A stretch of DNA of 64,000 bases from a virus, in IMG/VR virus record IMGVR_UViG_3300046167_000554, positions 89,515 to 153,514 of that record; one strand, given 5' to 3'. How positions within the stretch are numbered: the first letter of the stretch is position 1; each line of letters opens with the position of its first letter. The position numbers and the translations under genes are program-made. Shown here piece by piece: positions 53,407-60,509 of the stretch. The notes below the pieces were generated by a model, which ran no database searches, had not been told where the DNA came from, and saw nothing but the letters and a program-made list of their open reading frames with translations.

Positions 53407-53432
53407 AAGGGGTCTTTATGACCCCTTTTTTT
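53407..53432 (+). terminator. Rho-independent terminator
   Basis: Stem GGGGTC / GACCCC with a five-base loop and a seven-T run, 18 nt after the stop at 53389. It separates the replication block from the curli-like block. Confidence 0.9.
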
Positions 53433-53454: not shown

Positions 53455-53462
53455 TATAAATA
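53455..53462 (+). promoter_or_regulatory. T4-like late promoter TATAAATA, 5 nt before ATG
   Basis: Exact octamer, five bases (ATGGT), then the ATG at 53468. No Shine-Dalgarno. Probably the promoter of the whole curli-like block. Confidence 0.78.
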
Positions 53463-53467
53463 ATGGT

Positions 53468-53761
53468 ATGGATATATTTGTATTGATAGGTGAAGTGGGA
53501 GCTCCGATTGCTGGAAGTCTAGTGATGGGGTTCTTCATATTCACTGTTATCAAACAAATTCTAGAAGGTGTCGTTGACGACATAAAAACTTTAACCATGT
53601 TCTGTAAGTCACTGGAAAATCGTGCAAGAACCATGTCTAATGAGATGATAAAGATAGACATGTTAGTGTCAAGTGCCTTAGAATTGAGACCCGACATAGA
53701 GAGAGTTGCACGTGCAGAGAACTTTGTGGAAGATGGGAAAGTGGATACGAGGAGAGATTAG
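53468..53761 (+). CDS. Small membrane protein, first gene of the curli-like block
   Basis: A 97-residue protein with a membrane segment near residues 10-28 ('GAPIAGSLVMGFFIFTVIKQ') and a charged helical tail. It resembles the proteins at 19831 and 53763 in architecture. Translation probably starts at the very 5' end of the transcript. Function unknown; a role in the envelope is inferred. Confidence 0.6.
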   Translation: MDIFVLIGEVGAPIAGSLVMGFFIFTVIKQILEGVVDDIKTLTMFCKSLENRARTMSNEMIKIDMLVSSALELRPDIERVARAENFVEDGKVDTRRD

Positions 53762-53762
53762 T

Positions 53763-54053
53763 ATGGAGACGGAAGTAGTTGAAGTAGTAGCAAATACAGA
53801 CCCTACATTGGTGTCCTTACTTAATGATTATGGATTTCCTATTGTAATGATGGTCGGACTTGGATATTTTATATACTATATTTGGTGGTTTGTGGGTGAG
53901 AAATTAGAACCCGAAATTGAAAAACAACACTTTGCACTTATCAGAGTGATTGACCAAGTAAGAATGTTAGACCAAGACCTAATACGTTTACAACAAAAAG
54001 TGGATGTAGTTCTTGAATACAAAGAGAATGAAAAGAAGAGGAAAACGAAATGA
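53763..54053 (+). CDS. Small membrane protein, second gene of the curli-like block
   Basis: Start chosen at ATG 53763 ('METEVVEVVANTDPTLVSLL'), giving 96 residues. One membrane segment ('DYGFPIVMMVGLGYFIYYIW') is followed by a long charged helix ('KQHFALIRVIDQVRMLDQDL') ending in a lysine-rich tail. Overlaps csgF by 4 nt. Possibly a partner of the first gene. Confidence 0.58.
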   Translation: METEVVEVVANTDPTLVSLLNDYGFPIVMMVGLGYFIYYIWWFVGEKLEPEIEKQHFALIRVIDQVRMLDQDLIRLQQKVDVVLEYKENEKKRKTK

Positions 54054-54511
54054 TTAAACCAACAGTATTAATTATAGGTTTATGTTTTGCACTTAGTGTA
54101 AGTGCAGATGAAATTGTTCACAAATTTAAGAGTCCATCCTTTAGTGGAATAGGACAGAGTTCTCATTATCTTACGATTGAGAACCAAGAGAAATCAAGAC
54201 GTGATAAGATTGCTCAGGACATAGAAGATAGAATTGCAAAAGCAGAAAGAGATGCAAATAACACTACCCTTGCAAAATTTCTTAGAAATGTCGAAAGTAG
54301 AATTTACGCTCAGATAGCAAAACAGTTAGTAGAAAATATGTTCTCTAACGGAGAAGCAGCAGACTATGGTGTTTTCACTATAGAAGGTAATACAGTTACA
54401 TACGAAAAATTAGTTGGAGAAGATGGTGCAGAATTCATCAGATTAACTATTGTTTCAAGTGATGGCACAACAACAACTTTAGATATACCAGTAGGTACAG
54501 GAAGTTTCTAA
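54050..54511 (+). CDS. csgF: Curli assembly protein CsgF-like
   Basis: A 153-residue protein. Residues 1-19 ('MIKPTVLIIGLCFALSVSA') are a signal peptide. The mature start 'DEIVHKFKSPSFSGIGQSSH' corresponds to the CsgF N-terminus, the part that plugs into the CsgG pore. The end ('LTIVSSDGTTTTLDIPVG') matches the CsgF C-terminal strands. CsgF couples the pore to surface nucleation. It lies 3 nt before csgG. Overall similarity is clear but low, and the middle is longer and more charged than in E. coli. Confidence 0.84.
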   Translation: MIKPTVLIIGLCFALSVSADEIVHKFKSPSFSGIGQSSHYLTIENQEKSRRDKIAQDIEDRIAKAERDANNTTLAKFLRNVESRIYAQIAKQLVENMFSNGEAADYGVFTIEGNTVTYEKLVGEDGAEFIRLTIVSSDGTTTTLDIPVGTGSF

Positions 54512-54514
54512 AAA

Positions 54515-55366
54515 ATGAAAAATCTCGGATTGGTAGGATTGATTATCTTGCTCACCAGTGGGTGTGCAAGTATTCCTTCGTCTTATGATTCGTGTGATTC
54601 AACTGTAATGAGTAAGGTAGGTACTTGTATAGAAAAGGCAGAGGTCGTGAAGATACCGACCTATCAAGAACTTTCAGACTTACCACCTGCTAAAGTAATG
54701 CCAGTAGTTGCAGTTTATGGGTTCTTAGATAAGACAGGACAAAGGAAGAGAATGGATGGAGTTGCATCTTTCTCTACTGCAGTGACCCAAGGTGCAGAAG
54801 CATTTTTAATTGATGCACTTAAGACTGCTGGAAAAGGTAAATGGTTTAGAGTAGTAGAGAGAACAAATTTGGATGCACTTGTAAGAGAGAGACAGATTGT
54901 TCGTTCTGCTAGAGAAGACTTTGCAAATCAAGAAGGTAATGAGGATTCCCCAACGGGTATTCAACCTCTCTTGTTTGCTGGTATCCTACTTGATGGTGGG
55001 ATAATTGGTTATGACACTAACATTGAAAGTGGTGGTAGGGGTGCAAGAACACTTGGTGTTGGAGCATCAGTTTCCTATCGAAGAGATGTGGTGACTGTAA
55101 GTTTGAGAGGAATCTCAGTTCTTACAGGAGAAATATTACTTAATGTACAAACCACTAAGACTATTCTTAGTACTGGTGGGGGGTATGATGTGTTCAAATT
55201 TATGGACATGGATACCCAACTTGTGGAAGTAGAAGACGGAGTTGCAACAAACGAAGGAGTATCGAAAGCTACTCGTTCTGCAATTGAACTTGCAGTCTTA
55301 GAACTAATATACCAAGGACACGATAGAGGTTTTTGGAAAATAGAGGAAAAACAAAATGAGGAATAA
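54515..55366 (+). CDS. csgG: Curli export pore CsgG
   Basis: A 283-residue lipoprotein: lipobox 'LLTSGC' with Cys17. The mature protein aligns well with E. coli CsgG over its whole length: 'VVAVYGFLDKTGQ', 'FSTAVTQGAEAFLIDALKTA', 'NLDALVRERQIVRSAREDFA', 'GGIIGYDTNIESGGRGAR', 'DRGFWKI'. CsgG forms a nonameric outer-membrane channel. Two of three constriction residues known from E. coli (Tyr51 and Asn55) are replaced around 'RMDGVASFSTAV', while the Phe is kept. It overlaps the next gene by 11 nt. Confidence 0.95.
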   Translation: MKNLGLVGLIILLTSGCASIPSSYDSCDSTVMSKVGTCIEKAEVVKIPTYQELSDLPPAKVMPVVAVYGFLDKTGQRKRMDGVASFSTAVTQGAEAFLIDALKTAGKGKWFRVVERTNLDALVRERQIVRSAREDFANQEGNEDSPTGIQPLLFAGILLDGGIIGYDTNIESGGRGARTLGVGASVSYRRDVVTVSLRGISVLTGEILLNVQTTKTILSTGGGYDVFKFMDMDTQLVEVEDGVATNEGVSKATRSAIELAVLELIYQGHDRGFWKIEEKQNEE

Positions 55367-56084
55367 ATTATTCATTACATTATGTTTATCATTAGGGTTA
55401 ACTGGATTCGTATCTGCTGGAGCAGACGATAACGAAATTTGGTTACAACAGTCGGGTGACAATTTAGTCTTAAATTTCACTCAAAGGGGTTATGGAAACA
55501 AAGTCGGATTAGATGACTTTTCAGGAACATCAGCTGATATGATTATCACTGGTGCATCTAACACCTTTACATTAGTGCAAGACGGAGATAACAACAAATT
55601 ATATGGGCCTTTTCTTGCAGATAGTTCAACAGTAAATTTAACGTTTACTGGTGATTCTAACTCCATGGATTGGAACGTAGGATATGTTGGTAGTGCAGAT
55701 AACTTAAACATGTTAGGTGTTATTACAGGTGACTCAAACACATTTGACATTGATGTCGGATATGATGCATCTGCAGAATATCTTAACTGGGATTTAGTAC
55801 TTACTGGTGACTCAAACGTATTCACTACTAAGATAGATAGTGACAATGCAGTTTGGAACTGGACTATTACAGGTTCATCAAATGATATTAATACTAACCA
55901 ATCAGATGCAACCGATAACAGTATCACTGCAGTCTTAACTGGTTCTACAAATGATATAGACATCATTCAGAAAAGTGGAACTACAGGTTGTCCAACTGGT
56001 CAGTCATGTAGTGGTATTATTGATGTATCTTTCGTGACTTCTAATGCAAATATTGATATCGTTCAGAAAGATTCTGGCGAGTAG
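55356..56084 (+). CDS. Curlin-like repeat protein 1
   Basis: A 242-residue protein: signal peptide 1-21, then seven repeats with a G-[DSA]-[SNT]-N turn ('VITGDSNTFDIDVGYD', 'VLTGDSNVFTTKI') at roughly 20-25 residue spacing, and 'LQQSGDN', 'FTQRGYGN' near the start. This is the pattern of curlin and CsgA-like amyloid subunits. Near the end is a Cys pair ('GCPTGQSC'). Probably exported by CsgG next to it. It is not CsgA by sequence identity, only by repeat logic. Confidence 0.72.
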   Translation: MRNKLFITLCLSLGLTGFVSAGADDNEIWLQQSGDNLVLNFTQRGYGNKVGLDDFSGTSADMIITGASNTFTLVQDGDNNKLYGPFLADSSTVNLTFTGDSNSMDWNVGYVGSADNLNMLGVITGDSNTFDIDVGYDASAEYLNWDLVLTGDSNVFTTKIDSDNAVWNWTITGSSNDINTNQSDATDNSITAVLTGSTNDIDIIQKSGTTGCPTGQSCSGIIDVSFVTSNANIDIVQKDSGE

Positions 56085-57180
56085 TCTTTTACTTATTGGT
56101 TCAGTTTCAGCTGAACCGATAGGTGAGATTATAGAATATAAGGGTTCAGCAGGACTTCAGAGAGACGGAGAGTCTACTCTTGTCAGTGCAAATACTGAAC
56201 CTGAAGTCTTGATGTATGATACAGCAAAGACCCAAAATGGTAGAATGAAAATTCAGTTCAAGGGTGACCAAGAACTAGACTTAACAGAACATACCAAGGT
56301 TTGGATAGACGAGGTTTACTATGACCCCGACCCATCCAAGTCAAAGATGGCCATAAGAATGGCACAAGGCACTGCTCGGTTTGCTTCGGGTTTCGGTGGA
56401 AAAATAAAGAAAAGTAACATAAATATATCTACACCTACTGCACAAATTGCTGTGGTTGGAACCGACTTCACTACAAGTATTGATGAACTCGGAAGGTCAC
56501 TTGTTATACTTTTGCCTGATAAATTTGGTAATCCTTCAGGTAAAATTATAGTCAGTAACGCAGGTGGAAGTGTAACACTAGAAGAGGCCTATCAAGCAAC
56601 GATGGTTTCAACTTTTGATGATTCACCCACTAAACCAGTGACAGTGAATGGTATTGATGGGAGTATGATTGACAATATGTTTATTGTGAATCCACCCGAA
56701 GAGGTTACAGAACAAGTTGCAGAAGAATCGTCTAACAACGAAAATGATAGTAACAACATTCTAGACGTGGACTTCCTAGAGTTCAATGATTTAGAAGAAG
56801 ACTATTTTGAAGATGATGAATTGGAATATACAGAACTCGACAGAGACTTATTAGATGTCGATTTCTTACAAGATTTACTGGATGTAGTTTTAGAGATTGA
56901 CCGAAAGGTTGGTATTGATGCACAAAGAAGGTCAGACCCCTTTGGAGTTGCAAGAATAGAAGGAACTGCATTTGGGTTGGACAAGGACTCTCAATACAAT
57001 ACAATTGTAGATAAGGGTCTTGGTCAAATTTGGTTCTATAGGGAAGTACAGGGAATTATCTCTATTAAAATCCCAATCTATGCACAAGCAACGATTAGAA
57101 CCACTACAGACGAAAAAGGTTCACTAATTAAAGTGGGTGATGGTTCGTCTATAAATATTACCATCACACAAACAAACTAG
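56044..57180 (+). CDS. FecR-domain periplasmic protein
   Basis: A protein of up to 378 residues, starting inside the previous gene (ATG 56044 or TTG 56053). Signal-like N-terminus 'KILASSLLLIGSVSAEP', then a FecR domain (about residues 25-180: 'GEIIEYKGSAGLQRDGEST', 'ISTPTAQIAVVGTDFTTSI'), then an acidic linker and a second beta segment. FecR domains sit in the periplasm, often pairing with sensors. In bacteria FecR genes are commonly next to CHASE2 cyclases, as here. Confidence 0.85.
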   Translation: MQILISFRKILASSLLLIGSVSAEPIGEIIEYKGSAGLQRDGESTLVSANTEPEVLMYDTAKTQNGRMKIQFKGDQELDLTEHTKVWIDEVYYDPDPSKSKMAIRMAQGTARFASGFGGKIKKSNINISTPTAQIAVVGTDFTTSIDELGRSLVILLPDKFGNPSGKIIVSNAGGSVTLEEAYQATMVSTFDDSPTKPVTVNGIDGSMIDNMFIVNPPEEVTEQVAEESSNNENDSNNILDVDFLEFNDLEEDYFEDDELEYTELDRDLLDVDFLQDLLDVVLEIDRKVGIDAQRRSDPFGVARIEGTAFGLDKDSQYNTIVDKGLGQIWFYREVQGIISIKIPIYAQATIRTTTDEKGSLIKVGDGSSINITITQTN

Positions 57181-57189
57181 GAGAATTAT

Positions 57190-57339
57190 ATGAATAGTAT
57201 GTTAGAAAAACTTCGTAATTGGCATGAATTTCAGTTAACTGGATTTCAAGATGCAATGAGACTTGACGATTACCATATGTTATGGTTATCATTTAGTAAA
57301 GGAGTAATATTCACATTATTATTTTTATGGATTATCTAA
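57190..57339 (+). CDS. Small membrane protein
   Basis: A 49-residue protein, 'MNSMLEKLRNWHEFQLTGFQ', with one C-terminal membrane segment ('SFSKGVIFTLLFLWII'). Preceded by a GGAGAATT sequence. Its stop overlaps the next start (TAATG). Part of the curli-like block; function unknown. Confidence 0.55.
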   Translation: MNSMLEKLRNWHEFQLTGFQDAMRLDDYHMLWLSFSKGVIFTLLFLWII

Positions 57340-57974
57340 TGAAAAGAATTATATTATTAATTTTATTGACACCTCTAACATGGGCTGGGGATAACCACGT
57401 CCATGTTGAGCAGGTAGGAAGTGGAGACGTTGACCTTACCATAACACAAGCAGGTTATGACAATGAAATTAAGTTCTCATTTGCACATAGTGGAAACACA
57501 TTCAATCTATTACAAACAGGAAATGGAAACTCTATTTCTTGGGTCTCTTACTGGGGGCCAGGAAAGTCTTGGGGTGGTGACGTAGACGGAATCAACAATA
57601 CTGAAAACGTAGAACAGAGTGGTGGTGCAACATATGGTAGACACATATGGGGAGACAGTAATACAGTAGACATATATCAAAACGGAAGTCACACACATAA
57701 CATAGACATTCACTCAAACTCAGTAGACCATGAACTACACCAGTCGGGTAGTGGTTCACATTATGCACACACTTACTTTTATGGAAGTGCAACAGGTTCA
57801 GATACCAGTATCATGCAGAAGGGTTCGGGAAATCACAATGCACAAATTCAACTTCAAGGAAACTATCCTACAACACTGAATCTTTTACAAGAAGGTTCAA
57901 CAAACAAATCATATACACTCACCCAAAATTGTGTTACAGCAGGTGGTTGTTCAGTATCGGTCACTCAACAATAA
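57339..57974 (+). CDS. Curlin-like repeat protein 2
   Basis: Start chosen at ATG 57339 ('MKRIILLILLTPLTWAGDNH'), giving 211 residues with a signal peptide of about 16. Eight Q-x-G motifs follow, such as 'HVEQVGSGDVDLTITQAGYD' and 'NTFNLLQTGNGN', in the style of curlin repeats. It ends with a Cys pair ('NCVTAGGCSVSVTQQ'), like the other curlin-like protein. Likely a second exported amyloid-like subunit. Confidence 0.75.
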   Translation: MKRIILLILLTPLTWAGDNHVHVEQVGSGDVDLTITQAGYDNEIKFSFAHSGNTFNLLQTGNGNSISWVSYWGPGKSWGGDVDGINNTENVEQSGGATYGRHIWGDSNTVDIYQNGSHTHNIDIHSNSVDHELHQSGSGSHYAHTYFYGSATGSDTSIMQKGSGNHNAQIQLQGNYPTTLNLLQEGSTNKSYTLTQNCVTAGGCSVSVTQQ

Positions 57975-57975
57975 T

Positions 57976-58374
57976 ATGGCATATTCACAAAAAGTAATCG
58001 ACAGATTTGAAGGTGTTCTCAATGCACCCGAACAATTCTCTGTTGGTAGATTCGACCCCAATGACCCTAATGTTGCAACAGGAATGACTGGAGCTCCTGC
58101 TTGTGGAGATGTGATGAAACTGCAACTCAAACTTGACGAGAACGAAATGATAGTAGACGTGAAGTTTAAGACTTATGGTTGTGGAAGTGCAATTGCAAGT
58201 AGTTCATTATTTGTTGACTTACTCAAAGGTAAAACTATAGAAGAAGCAAAACTTATTAAAGATAAAGAGATTGCAGAAATTCTAGAATTACCACCCATAA
58301 AATTACACTGTAGTGTTCTTGCAGAAGACTCAATCAGAAAGGCAATAGAGGATTGGGAAACAAAGAGTGTATAG
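57976..58374 (+). CDS. iscU: Iron-sulfur scaffold protein IscU
   Basis: Start at ATG 57976, 132 residues. The three cluster cysteines are present: Cys43 ('GAPACGDVMKL'), Cys69 ('TYGCGSA') and Cys112 ('KLHCSVLAEDSI'). The order and spacing match E. coli IscU (37, 63, 106) with a constant shift. It builds Fe-S clusters and passes them to target proteins. Placed inside the curli-like block, just before the cyclase, 4 nt from the previous stop region. No iscS or other Fe-S genes are seen in the window. Confidence 0.9.
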   Translation: MAYSQKVIDRFEGVLNAPEQFSVGRFDPNDPNVATGMTGAPACGDVMKLQLKLDENEMIVDVKFKTYGCGSAIASSSLFVDLLKGKTIEEAKLIKDKEIAEILELPPIKLHCSVLAEDSIRKAIEDWETKSV

Positions 58375-60205
58375 TTGGAAAACAGTCCTCATCACAATCG
58401 GTGTATTTGTAGGACTTAAAATTTGGTCTCCTTATCTCGTAGAGAATATCACTTGGTCTTACTTTGATGTTCTTCATCAGAGTCAGGAAAAAGTTCAGGT
58501 AGATGACATAGTCTTAGTAGACATAGACGAGAAGTCACTTGAAGTGTTCGGTCAATATCCTATCAAACGTAGTATCTATAGGGATATCCTACTTGACACT
58601 CATTACACTAATACACATGTTTTCACTCAACTCTTTAACCAACCTGATAGAAATCAGGGAGAGGATGAAATCTTTGCAGAAGGATTAGTCAATAGATTGA
58701 CAATTCTATCAGCTGCACCTACCATTCAAAAGAACACTGGTTCTGCACCCTTCGTAGGTAACTCTACTTTCGGTAGTGGAAAGGCAACAGACCACCTATG
58801 GAATTTTACAGGAATATCAAGTCCTATCAGGATACTTCAGGATAATACTTACGGAGTTGGGGTTACTGTTGCAACACCTAGTGTAACTGGGACTGCAAAC
58901 TTTGATGGAACGATAAGGTCTATCCCGTTAATCGTAACTGCAAACGAACAGGTATATCCGTCTCTTGCACTGGAAACACTTCGTGCATTAAAAGACCAAC
59001 CATCCTATCAAACTAAAATTACAGAAGTCGGAGTAGAGTGGGTAAGAATGGGTAGAGACAAACCTATTACCACCACTCCAACAAGTGATGTTATGGTAAC
59101 CTATTGGAATGAGTTCCAACGGGTTTCTGCAGTAGACTTACCTAATCTAAATCTTACTAATAAGATTCTTGTATGGGGTCTGACGGCAGAGGGTTTAAAT
59201 AATCCAGTTTCAACCCCAGTGGGAATATTGTATCCTCACGAAGTTCAAGCAAACCATATCCAAACCGCCTTGTCAGGAGTTCAAATACAACAATCCTACT
59301 ATCTTGAATTGCTCGAGATTGTTCTTCTGATGACAGTTCTTGTATTGATATTGGTGATGGTTTACAGGCTTCCCACAATTCTTTCGGGGATAATGAGTCT
59401 AACACTTGTAGGACTTCAAATCTTCGGGAGTTATTATATTTGGACTTCAAGTCTCGTTCTTTTCGATACCTTCTTTTCATCAATTGCCTCCTTGATTGTG
59501 TTTGGTCATGCCTCTTTCAATCAATACTATACAACCTACCAACTCAAAGAAGAAATTAAGAAGCAGTTCCAAAAGTATTTATCTCCTGACATGGTTGACC
59601 AACTCGCAGAGAATCCCGATTTACTTAAATTAGGTGGAGATAGAAAGGAACTTACTTTCATGTTTATGGACATATGTGGATTCACCCCCATAAGCGAACA
59701 CTACATGAAACAAGACGACCCCGAGGGATTAGTAGAATTGATTAACAAATTCCTTGACATGCAAACAAAGATAATCCTAAATAATAATGGAACAATTGAT
59801 AAGTATATGGGCGATTGTATTATGAGTTTTTGGAATGCACCTTTAGATTGTCCCGACCATGCCGAGATGGCAGTCAAGTCTGCAGAAGAAATACTAATTG
59901 CTACCAAGGAACTCAATGAAGAACTCAAACCACTCGGCCTTCCCCCTATCAATGTTGGTATTGGTATTAACACTGGTGAGTGCATCGTTGGAAACATGGG
60001 GTCAGAACTTAGATTTGACTATTCCGTCATTGGAGATGCCGTCAACCTTGGAGCTAGACTCGAAGGACAAACAAGAAATTATGATGGGGTGGACGTGTTG
60101 TTGGGACAAGAAACATATCGACAATGTCCGTCTAGAGCATTCACTGAAGTCGACAGGATTACAGTTAAAGGAAAATCCGAACCAGTTACAGTTTACACTA
60201 TCTGA
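58367..60205 (+). CDS. CHASE2 membrane adenylate cyclase
   Basis: A 612-residue protein from the GTG at 58367. One N-terminal membrane helix, a CHASE2 sensor domain (about residues 40-300: 'DDIVLVDIDEKSLEVFGQYP'), three further membrane helices (about 308-395) and a class III cyclase domain (about 425-612). Metal Asp in 'MDICGFT' and 'DKYMGDC', the purine-specific Lys-Asp pair and the Asn/Arg of 'VNLGARLE' are all present. It should make cAMP (or cGMP). It overlaps iscU by 8 nt and belongs to the FecR-containing block. A cyclase of this kind is unusual in a phage. Confidence 0.92.
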   Translation: MYSWKTVLITIGVFVGLKIWSPYLVENITWSYFDVLHQSQEKVQVDDIVLVDIDEKSLEVFGQYPIKRSIYRDILLDTHYTNTHVFTQLFNQPDRNQGEDEIFAEGLVNRLTILSAAPTIQKNTGSAPFVGNSTFGSGKATDHLWNFTGISSPIRILQDNTYGVGVTVATPSVTGTANFDGTIRSIPLIVTANEQVYPSLALETLRALKDQPSYQTKITEVGVEWVRMGRDKPITTTPTSDVMVTYWNEFQRVSAVDLPNLNLTNKILVWGLTAEGLNNPVSTPVGILYPHEVQANHIQTALSGVQIQQSYYLELLEIVLLMTVLVLILVMVYRLPTILSGIMSLTLVGLQIFGSYYIWTSSLVLFDTFFSSIASLIVFGHASFNQYYTTYQLKEEIKKQFQKYLSPDMVDQLAENPDLLKLGGDRKELTFMFMDICGFTPISEHYMKQDDPEGLVELINKFLDMQTKIILNNNGTIDKYMGDCIMSFWNAPLDCPDHAEMAVKSAEEILIATKELNEELKPLGLPPINVGIGINTGECIVGNMGSELRFDYSVIGDAVNLGARLEGQTRNYDGVDVLLGQETYRQCPSRAFTEVDRITVKGKSEPVTVYTI

Positions 60206-60509
60206 ACCACCTAGTACGTTTGACTGGACTGCATTCTATACTCTTCAACTACTAGATATCTATTCTACATATCGTGGACTTAAATATGATTGTGTCGTAG
60301 AAATGAATCCAATCGTAGGAGAGTCTCCTTCAGTTGCTAGAATGTTTGCAGTTAAGACTGCAATTCTAATACCTGCTATTGAGGTGGATAGAAGAAACAA
60401 CGAAATAACTGAAGATACATTCCACGAAATGAACTTTCTTATGTCCATAGTAGTTGCAAATAACTTTGACCAAGTAAAACAGGCAAAAAAATATTGCAAT
60501 AAAAGATAA
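60081..60509 (+). CDS. Small conserved protein, DUF5658-like
   Basis: The frame to the stop at 60509 carries 'WTAFYTLQLLDIYSTYRGLK' and 'NPIVGESPSVARMFAVKTAI' followed by 'LIPAIEVDRR', the shape of a small DUF5658-type protein with membrane segments. The start is uncertain: the first clear in-frame ATG is at 60081, inside the cyclase, and a downstream alternative start is possible. It may be the last gene of the block. Confidence 0.5.
   Translation: MMGWTCCWDKKHIDNVRLEHSLKSTGLQLKENPNQLQFTLSEPPSTFDWTAFYTLQLLDIYSTYRGLKYDCVVEMNPIVGESPSVARMFAVKTAILIPAIEVDRRNNEITEDTFHEMNFLMSIVVANNFDQVKQAKKYCNKR

Follow-up and report, generated by a model that had tools for sequence, protein, structure and literature searches.

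The window, which is the whole 64-kb stretch of DNA analysed here, corresponds to the final 64 kb of a virus record of 153,514 bases. The virus is a T4-like phage, with PHROGs matches for terminase, sheath, portal, scaffold, major capsid protein, helicase and sliding clamp, and its capsid protein is nearest to those of Methylophilales phage Melnitz and of Pelagibacter phages HTVC008M and Mosig (65-68 %). The locus under study runs from a putative late promoter (53455) to position 60205 and comprises, in this order, the genes for two small membrane proteins (TM1 and TM2), CsgF, CsgG, a first curlin-repeat protein (curlin 1), a FecR-domain protein, a second curlin-repeat protein (curlin 2), an optional NifU-like insert, and a CHASE2 adenylate cyclase (Table 1). 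A preliminary description of this DNA had recognised a phage-borne curli-type block with a pore, a chaperone and two candidate cargo proteins, all of which are present according to profile matches. The parts that it listed are therefore retained, but the block is larger than it listed, as the FecR-domain protein and the CHASE2 cyclase had been overlooked. A further protein, whose gene (59994-60509) overlaps the cyclase gene at its 3' end, matches DUF5658 barely above the cut-off.

Table 1. Features of the curli-type module, in window coordinates.
Feature	Position	Strand	Evidence or remark
Intrinsic-terminator-like hairpin	53407..53427	+	ahead of the putative late promoter
Putative T4-type late promoter TATAAATA	53455..53462	+	13 nt 5' of the first ATG
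TM1, 97-aa single-TM protein	53468..53761	+	phrog_18771, no known domain
TM2, 96-aa paralogue of TM1	53763..54053	+	phrog_18771
CsgF	54050..54511	+	PF10614 E=7e-12, phrog_35372 1e-39
CsgG, outer-membrane pore lipoprotein	54515..55366	+	PF03783, PDB and NCBIfam matches
Curlin-repeat protein 1 (CsgA/B-like)	55356..56084	+	NCBIfam CsgA; PF07012 in orthologues; AF2 model
Secreted FecR-domain protein	56044..57180	+	PF04773 2.9e-10
Curlin-repeat protein 2, C-terminal Cys-pair cap	57327..57974	+	NCBIfam CsgA; start may be 57339
NifU/IscU-like protein, optional insert	57976..58374	+	PF01592 1.3e-38
CHASE2 - TM - class III adenylate cyclase	58367..60205	+	PF05226 1.8e-27, PF00211 5e-16

The octamer TATAAATA occurs 14 times in the window, always on the + (coding) strand and never on the - strand. 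At the module, its distance to the ATG is exactly 13 nt, the same as at the portal gene. By analogy with T4 biology, it probably acts as a late promoter in this phage. In the 120 nt ahead of TM1, 74 of 79 relatives have the TAAATA core, against 7.5 expected, and 44 have the strict octamer, against 1.9 expected; these relatives are not independent samples. The single late promoter that had been placed ahead of the block is consistent with these counts, and the module and the virion genes apparently share one type of late promoter for their expression. A hairpin with a T-run is also found at the equivalent place in many relatives, and such a hairpin before the promoter would insulate the module from the upstream genes. 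Another TATAAATA lies within the end of the FecR gene, 5' of a 49-codon ORF (57190-57339, in the region 57150-57339 of the window) for which no family match was found.

The small genes upstream of CsgF were called histidine kinases by Wittmers 2022 (PMC9599517). This identity is questionable for TM1 and TM2: neither Pfam nor NCBIfam gives a kinase match for these proteins of about 95 aa, and no histidine is conserved among proteins of the TM1/TM2 type. Their association with the pore genes is nearly invariable, as loci selected by TM1 contain TM2 in 62/62, CsgF in 61/62 and CsgG in 61/62 cases. The sole exception (L349:7653) is a TM1-TM2 pair that is followed by neither CsgF nor CsgG.

CsgG had been described as clear over its full length, and the PF03783 match (E=6.5e-48), which spans residues 61-277 of 283, agrees with this, as does the match to the sequence of the solved E. 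coli CsgG in the PDB (E=1.3e-45). The NCBIfam CsgG model gives 7.7e-51 and 173 bits, under its equivalog cut-off of 505. A lipobox, LLTSG-C17, is recognisable by eye. The constriction phenylalanine is retained in this CsgG, and the equivalent residue is a leucine in HTVC008M and Melnitz. CsgF was correctly placed directly 5' of CsgG (csgF ends at 54511, csgG starts at 54515) and has a signal peptide, judged by eye. Its PF10614 match is above the cut-off, as for a type VIII partner; a phmmer search with CsgF gave no match in the PDB. The absence of CsgE, noted earlier for the block, extends to the whole 153.5-kb record, as a PF10627 search found no match there, nor in HTVC008M, Melnitz or genome G001, with a positive E. 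coli control. According to literature cited in PMC7029224, CsgE has a boosting but not an essential role.

The missing CsgE gate in this record, HTVC008M and Melnitz is also what an ungated hole would look like. Buchholz 2022, who reported CsgF/CsgG in Melnitz, put forward such a lysis hypothesis (PMC9004378): CsgG:CsgF would be pinholin-like or secretin-like and would time lysis or depolarisation, with the curlins vestigial or accessory. Late transcription from the promoter would suit lysis timing. However, CsgG lipoproteins go into the outer and not the inner membrane, which makes a holin role unlikely, the curlins are retained under purifying selection, and CsgF, the FecR-domain protein and the cyclase are left unexplained. 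We therefore consider this hole rather unlikely. Virion release through the pore, one of the roles proposed in the preliminary description, is unlikely, given that a capsid is much larger than this pore (argument in PMC7029224).

The two curlins were each matched by the NCBIfam models of CsgA and CsgB, with E-values of 7.4e-5 and 1.6e-4 for curlin 1 and of 5.2e-8 and 7.2e-8 for curlin 2, both CsgA scores being below the equivalog cut-offs. As the two models match both proteins about equally, the earlier statement that CsgB is not seen was too strict. With Pfam, the curlins of the window are under the cut-off or do not score at all, and an HMM built from bacterial curlin repeats reaches curlin 2 at E=0.04 only and does not reach curlin 1. 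These single-protein scores are weak, so the curlin identity is carried by the family evidence. Curlin_rpt (PF07012) is the only Pfam family found among the orthologues (14/36 for curlin 1, 13/32 for curlin 2), and the two curlin families are mutually homologous by profile comparison (prob 99 %, E 6e-20). In addition, G..N motifs are more numerous in the two curlins than in shuffled sequences (p about 0.001 and 0.005). The earlier assignment of two exported proteins with curlin-type repeats is consistent with the model matches, the orthologues and the motif counts, the signal peptides being judged by eye. AlphaFold2 gave all-beta repeat models with a pLDDT of 80 for curlin 1 and 77 for curlin 2. 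When these were compared with solved structures by Foldseek, beta-helix proteins came out on top, none of them significant.

At its C-terminus, the second curlin has a Cys-x(3-9)-Cys cap in 63/65 phage proteins vs 0/178 bacterial curlin-like ORFs, the sequences compared not being independent samples. The two cysteines of this cap probably form a disulphide. With a simple motif filter, curlin 1 was retained in 98/106 loci and curlin 2 in 64/80. At one locus (L012:10491-11207), the second curlin is 38 % identical to that of the window and the module neighbours are 75-90 % identical, as if this gene had been swapped.

The FecR-domain protein exhibits a signal peptide, recognised by eye, followed by the FecR domain at 60-150, with no further Pfam domain and no anti-sigma part. 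FecR anti-sigma proteins have a cytoplasmic anti-sigma part, a TM segment and a periplasmic FecR domain, an architecture that is not found here, and none of the module genes encodes a sigma factor. As the protein is exported and lacks the anti-sigma part, it is not an evident iron regulator. A C-terminal phi-x-phi-x-Q strand is present in 77/78 phage FecR proteins and in about 0.4 % of other non-curlin ORFs; for this background, 22/1212 ORFs matched, most of the 20 shown being, in our reading, unlisted curlins, and the pattern was picked post hoc. A true curlin repeat at the FecR C-terminus was rejected, as hhalign against both curlin families gave 1.6 and 0.6 %, no higher than the CsgG control. 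We therefore retain the terminal strand as a motif only, and at that level it looks like a curlin edge.

All catalytic residues of the cyclase are intact, namely the metal-binding D435 and D483, and K479, D557, N560 and R564. In S. meliloti, an outer-membrane beta-barrel works together with CHASE2 cyclases (PMC13001267), and a Burkholderia biofilm operon holds both FecR and CHASE2 proteins (PMC5192318), which would fit a sensor of the envelope state. In other Alphaproteobacteria, the FecR domain is found beside CHASE2 cyclases in a minority of loci only, as seen with the phage FecR profile. The NifU-like insert between curlin 2 and the cyclase is present in 12/64 related loci.

These observations, together with the co-conservation of the cyclase and the pore, could also mean that signalling is the main output: the cyclase would raise cAMP upon an envelope change reported by FecR or curlin status, and the fibre would be the sensor or trigger. 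A canonical cNMP receptor domain was, however, not found in this phage and, within the order (SAR11) to which a MAG labelled Pelagibacter belongs, occurs in only 10/147 genomes; this may not be the order of the host, as the host of this phage is unproven. We consider signalling as the main output to be unlikely. CsgG occurs in 3/147 genomes of the same order, one of the three being the phage-like contig used as entry point, so in general hosts of the SAR11 order provide neither a curli system nor a usual type of cAMP receptor. Of the whole module, the step of the cyclase is understood least, and no receptor for its cAMP is evident. The near-absence of CsgG in these genomes would also fit an auxiliary uptake role, put forward in PMC7029224 and PMC9599517, in which an open CsgG pore admits nutrients, siderophores or cofactors. 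This role seems very improbable to us, as a late promoter acts at the time when uptake helps least, the curlins, the FecR-domain protein and the cyclase are not explained by it, and the exported FecR-domain protein gives it no evident iron regulator.

In 50,697 phage records, TM1, TM2, CsgG, the FecR-domain protein and the full-length cyclase all matched one set of six, made up of two records of HTVC008M and four of Melnitz. Outside this set, there were two matches to the cyclase, covering only 24 % of the query, and one to CsgG. This CsgG, 39 % identical to that of the window, comes from an unannotated record of 1.5 kb that bears the name Salmonella phage S.Kent 1-2-1 (L393, OR851715.1) and is possibly a bacterial fragment. 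Among the 37 viral loci that were selected by the cyclase and had 6.5 kb of upstream DNA, FecR was present in 35, CsgG in 34, CsgF in 33 and TM in 32. Each of the core module genes is under purifying selection (omega 0.03-0.31, the range covering the core genes and not the NifU insert). At the sequence level, the TM pair, CsgF, CsgG, the curlins, the FecR-domain protein and the cyclase thus form one conserved unit behind a predicted T4-type late promoter. Phage-type module genes are also carried by contigs L084-L088, L090-L092 and L095, which sit in bacterial bins (Saprospirales, Sphingobacteriales, Flavobacteriales, Rhodobacteraceae, Pirellulales, Pelagibacter) and look like phage contigs misplaced in bacterial genome bins.

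Modules of this kind have already been published, with CsgF/CsgG in pelagimyophages (Zaragoza-Solas 2020, PMC7029224) and in Melnitz (Buchholz 2022), and with the full order, including CsgA/B, FecR and the cyclase, in myo- and podo-pelagiphages (Wittmers 2022, PMC9599517). The relation to pelagimyophage clusters drawn in the preliminary description is therefore correct, and the joint presence of pore and candidate cargo stands, but its novelty does not. The published pelagiphage T8SS module consists of one or two small genes, CsgF, CsgG, CsgA/B, FecR, a second CsgA/B and the cyclase, in the same order as in the window and likewise without CsgE. In contrast to it, the window has the NifU-like insert before the cyclase, and its small upstream genes have no histidine-kinase feature. 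The clusters of HTVC008M and Melnitz also share the gene order, with CsgG 47-48 % and the cyclase 35-38 % identical, and lack the NifU insert. The E. coli type VIII system (csgBAC-csgDEFG), compared here without CsgC and CsgD, has the CsgG pore, CsgF and curlin repeats in common with the window, whereas the window has no CsgE, diverged curlins, and FecR and the CHASE2 cyclase within one operon.

According to Wittmers 2022 (PMC9599517), FecR and the cyclase are not found in bacterial curli operons. Nevertheless, the MAG of Hyphomonas sp. TMED17 (L089, NHBW01000006.1) contains csgF, csgG, a curlin gene, fecR and a CHASE2 cyclase gene in the same order as the phage, on a 705-kb contig of even GC and with cellular neighbours. 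This operon differs from that of the phage by the lack of TM1/TM2, by its single curlin without Cys cap, and by a FecR without the C-terminal strand motif. In trees, its CsgG and its cyclase fall with their phage counterparts (SH-aLRT of 93 and 100), CsgG on a long branch. It is a single MAG, and a phage-type cyclase is found in 1/105 genomes of its family. We regard this operon as a probable cellular relative of the phage module, and transfer may have gone in either direction. The text of Wittmers 2022 (PMC9599517) does not mention a promoter, as judged by a word search of that text, and we saw no report in it of a Cys-capped second curlin or of a cellular sister operon. What is added here is the conservation of the promoter, the relabelling of the TM proteins, the Cys cap, the Hyphomonas operon, and the scarcity of cAMP receptors in the SAR11 order.

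Based on these observations, we lean, by a modest degree, towards a type VIII module with which the phage coats the infected cell in amyloid-like material at a late stage. CsgG:CsgF would then export both curlins, which would polymerise on the outer face into the coat. The FecR-domain protein would be part of the fibre or stay in the periplasm, and its state would be sensed by the CHASE2 domain, which would set cAMP. The most likely benefit of the coat would be either protection of the infected cell and its progeny, by receptor masking or superinfection exclusion, or the holding together of the lysate and neighbouring cells, with capture of siblings. The presence of two conserved curlins argues for such a coat, as a pore without cargo would not need them. 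Counting against it are the lack of CsgE, the diverged curlin repeats, the lack of a significant Foldseek match, and the fact that no clumping was seen in Melnitz infection (PMC9004378). A fuller version, which has a small but appreciable chance of being right, is a true amyloid coat with a Cys-capped curlin, a curlin-type strand in FecR, two inner-membrane proteins, and cAMP feedback on the state of the coat through CHASE2. If true, the virus would equip the cell surface with an organelle that has a feedback loop of its own and sends cAMP into a host in which the usual receptor is mostly missing.

Some of the ocean's most abundant phages carry curli-type modules. The choice of their role is narrowed by the probable late transcription, the conserved cargo, the cellular operon relative, and an all-or-none inheritance that takes in the two unnamed membrane proteins, and two current labels, histidine kinase and FecR iron regulator, are questioned. 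A direct test is feasible in cultured pairs, namely HTVC008M on HTCC1062 and Melnitz on H5P1. The Melnitz cyclase (L083:11044-13095) exhibits a serine at the position of the expected transition-state asparagine (GDSVSTAAR), which makes its activity doubtful.
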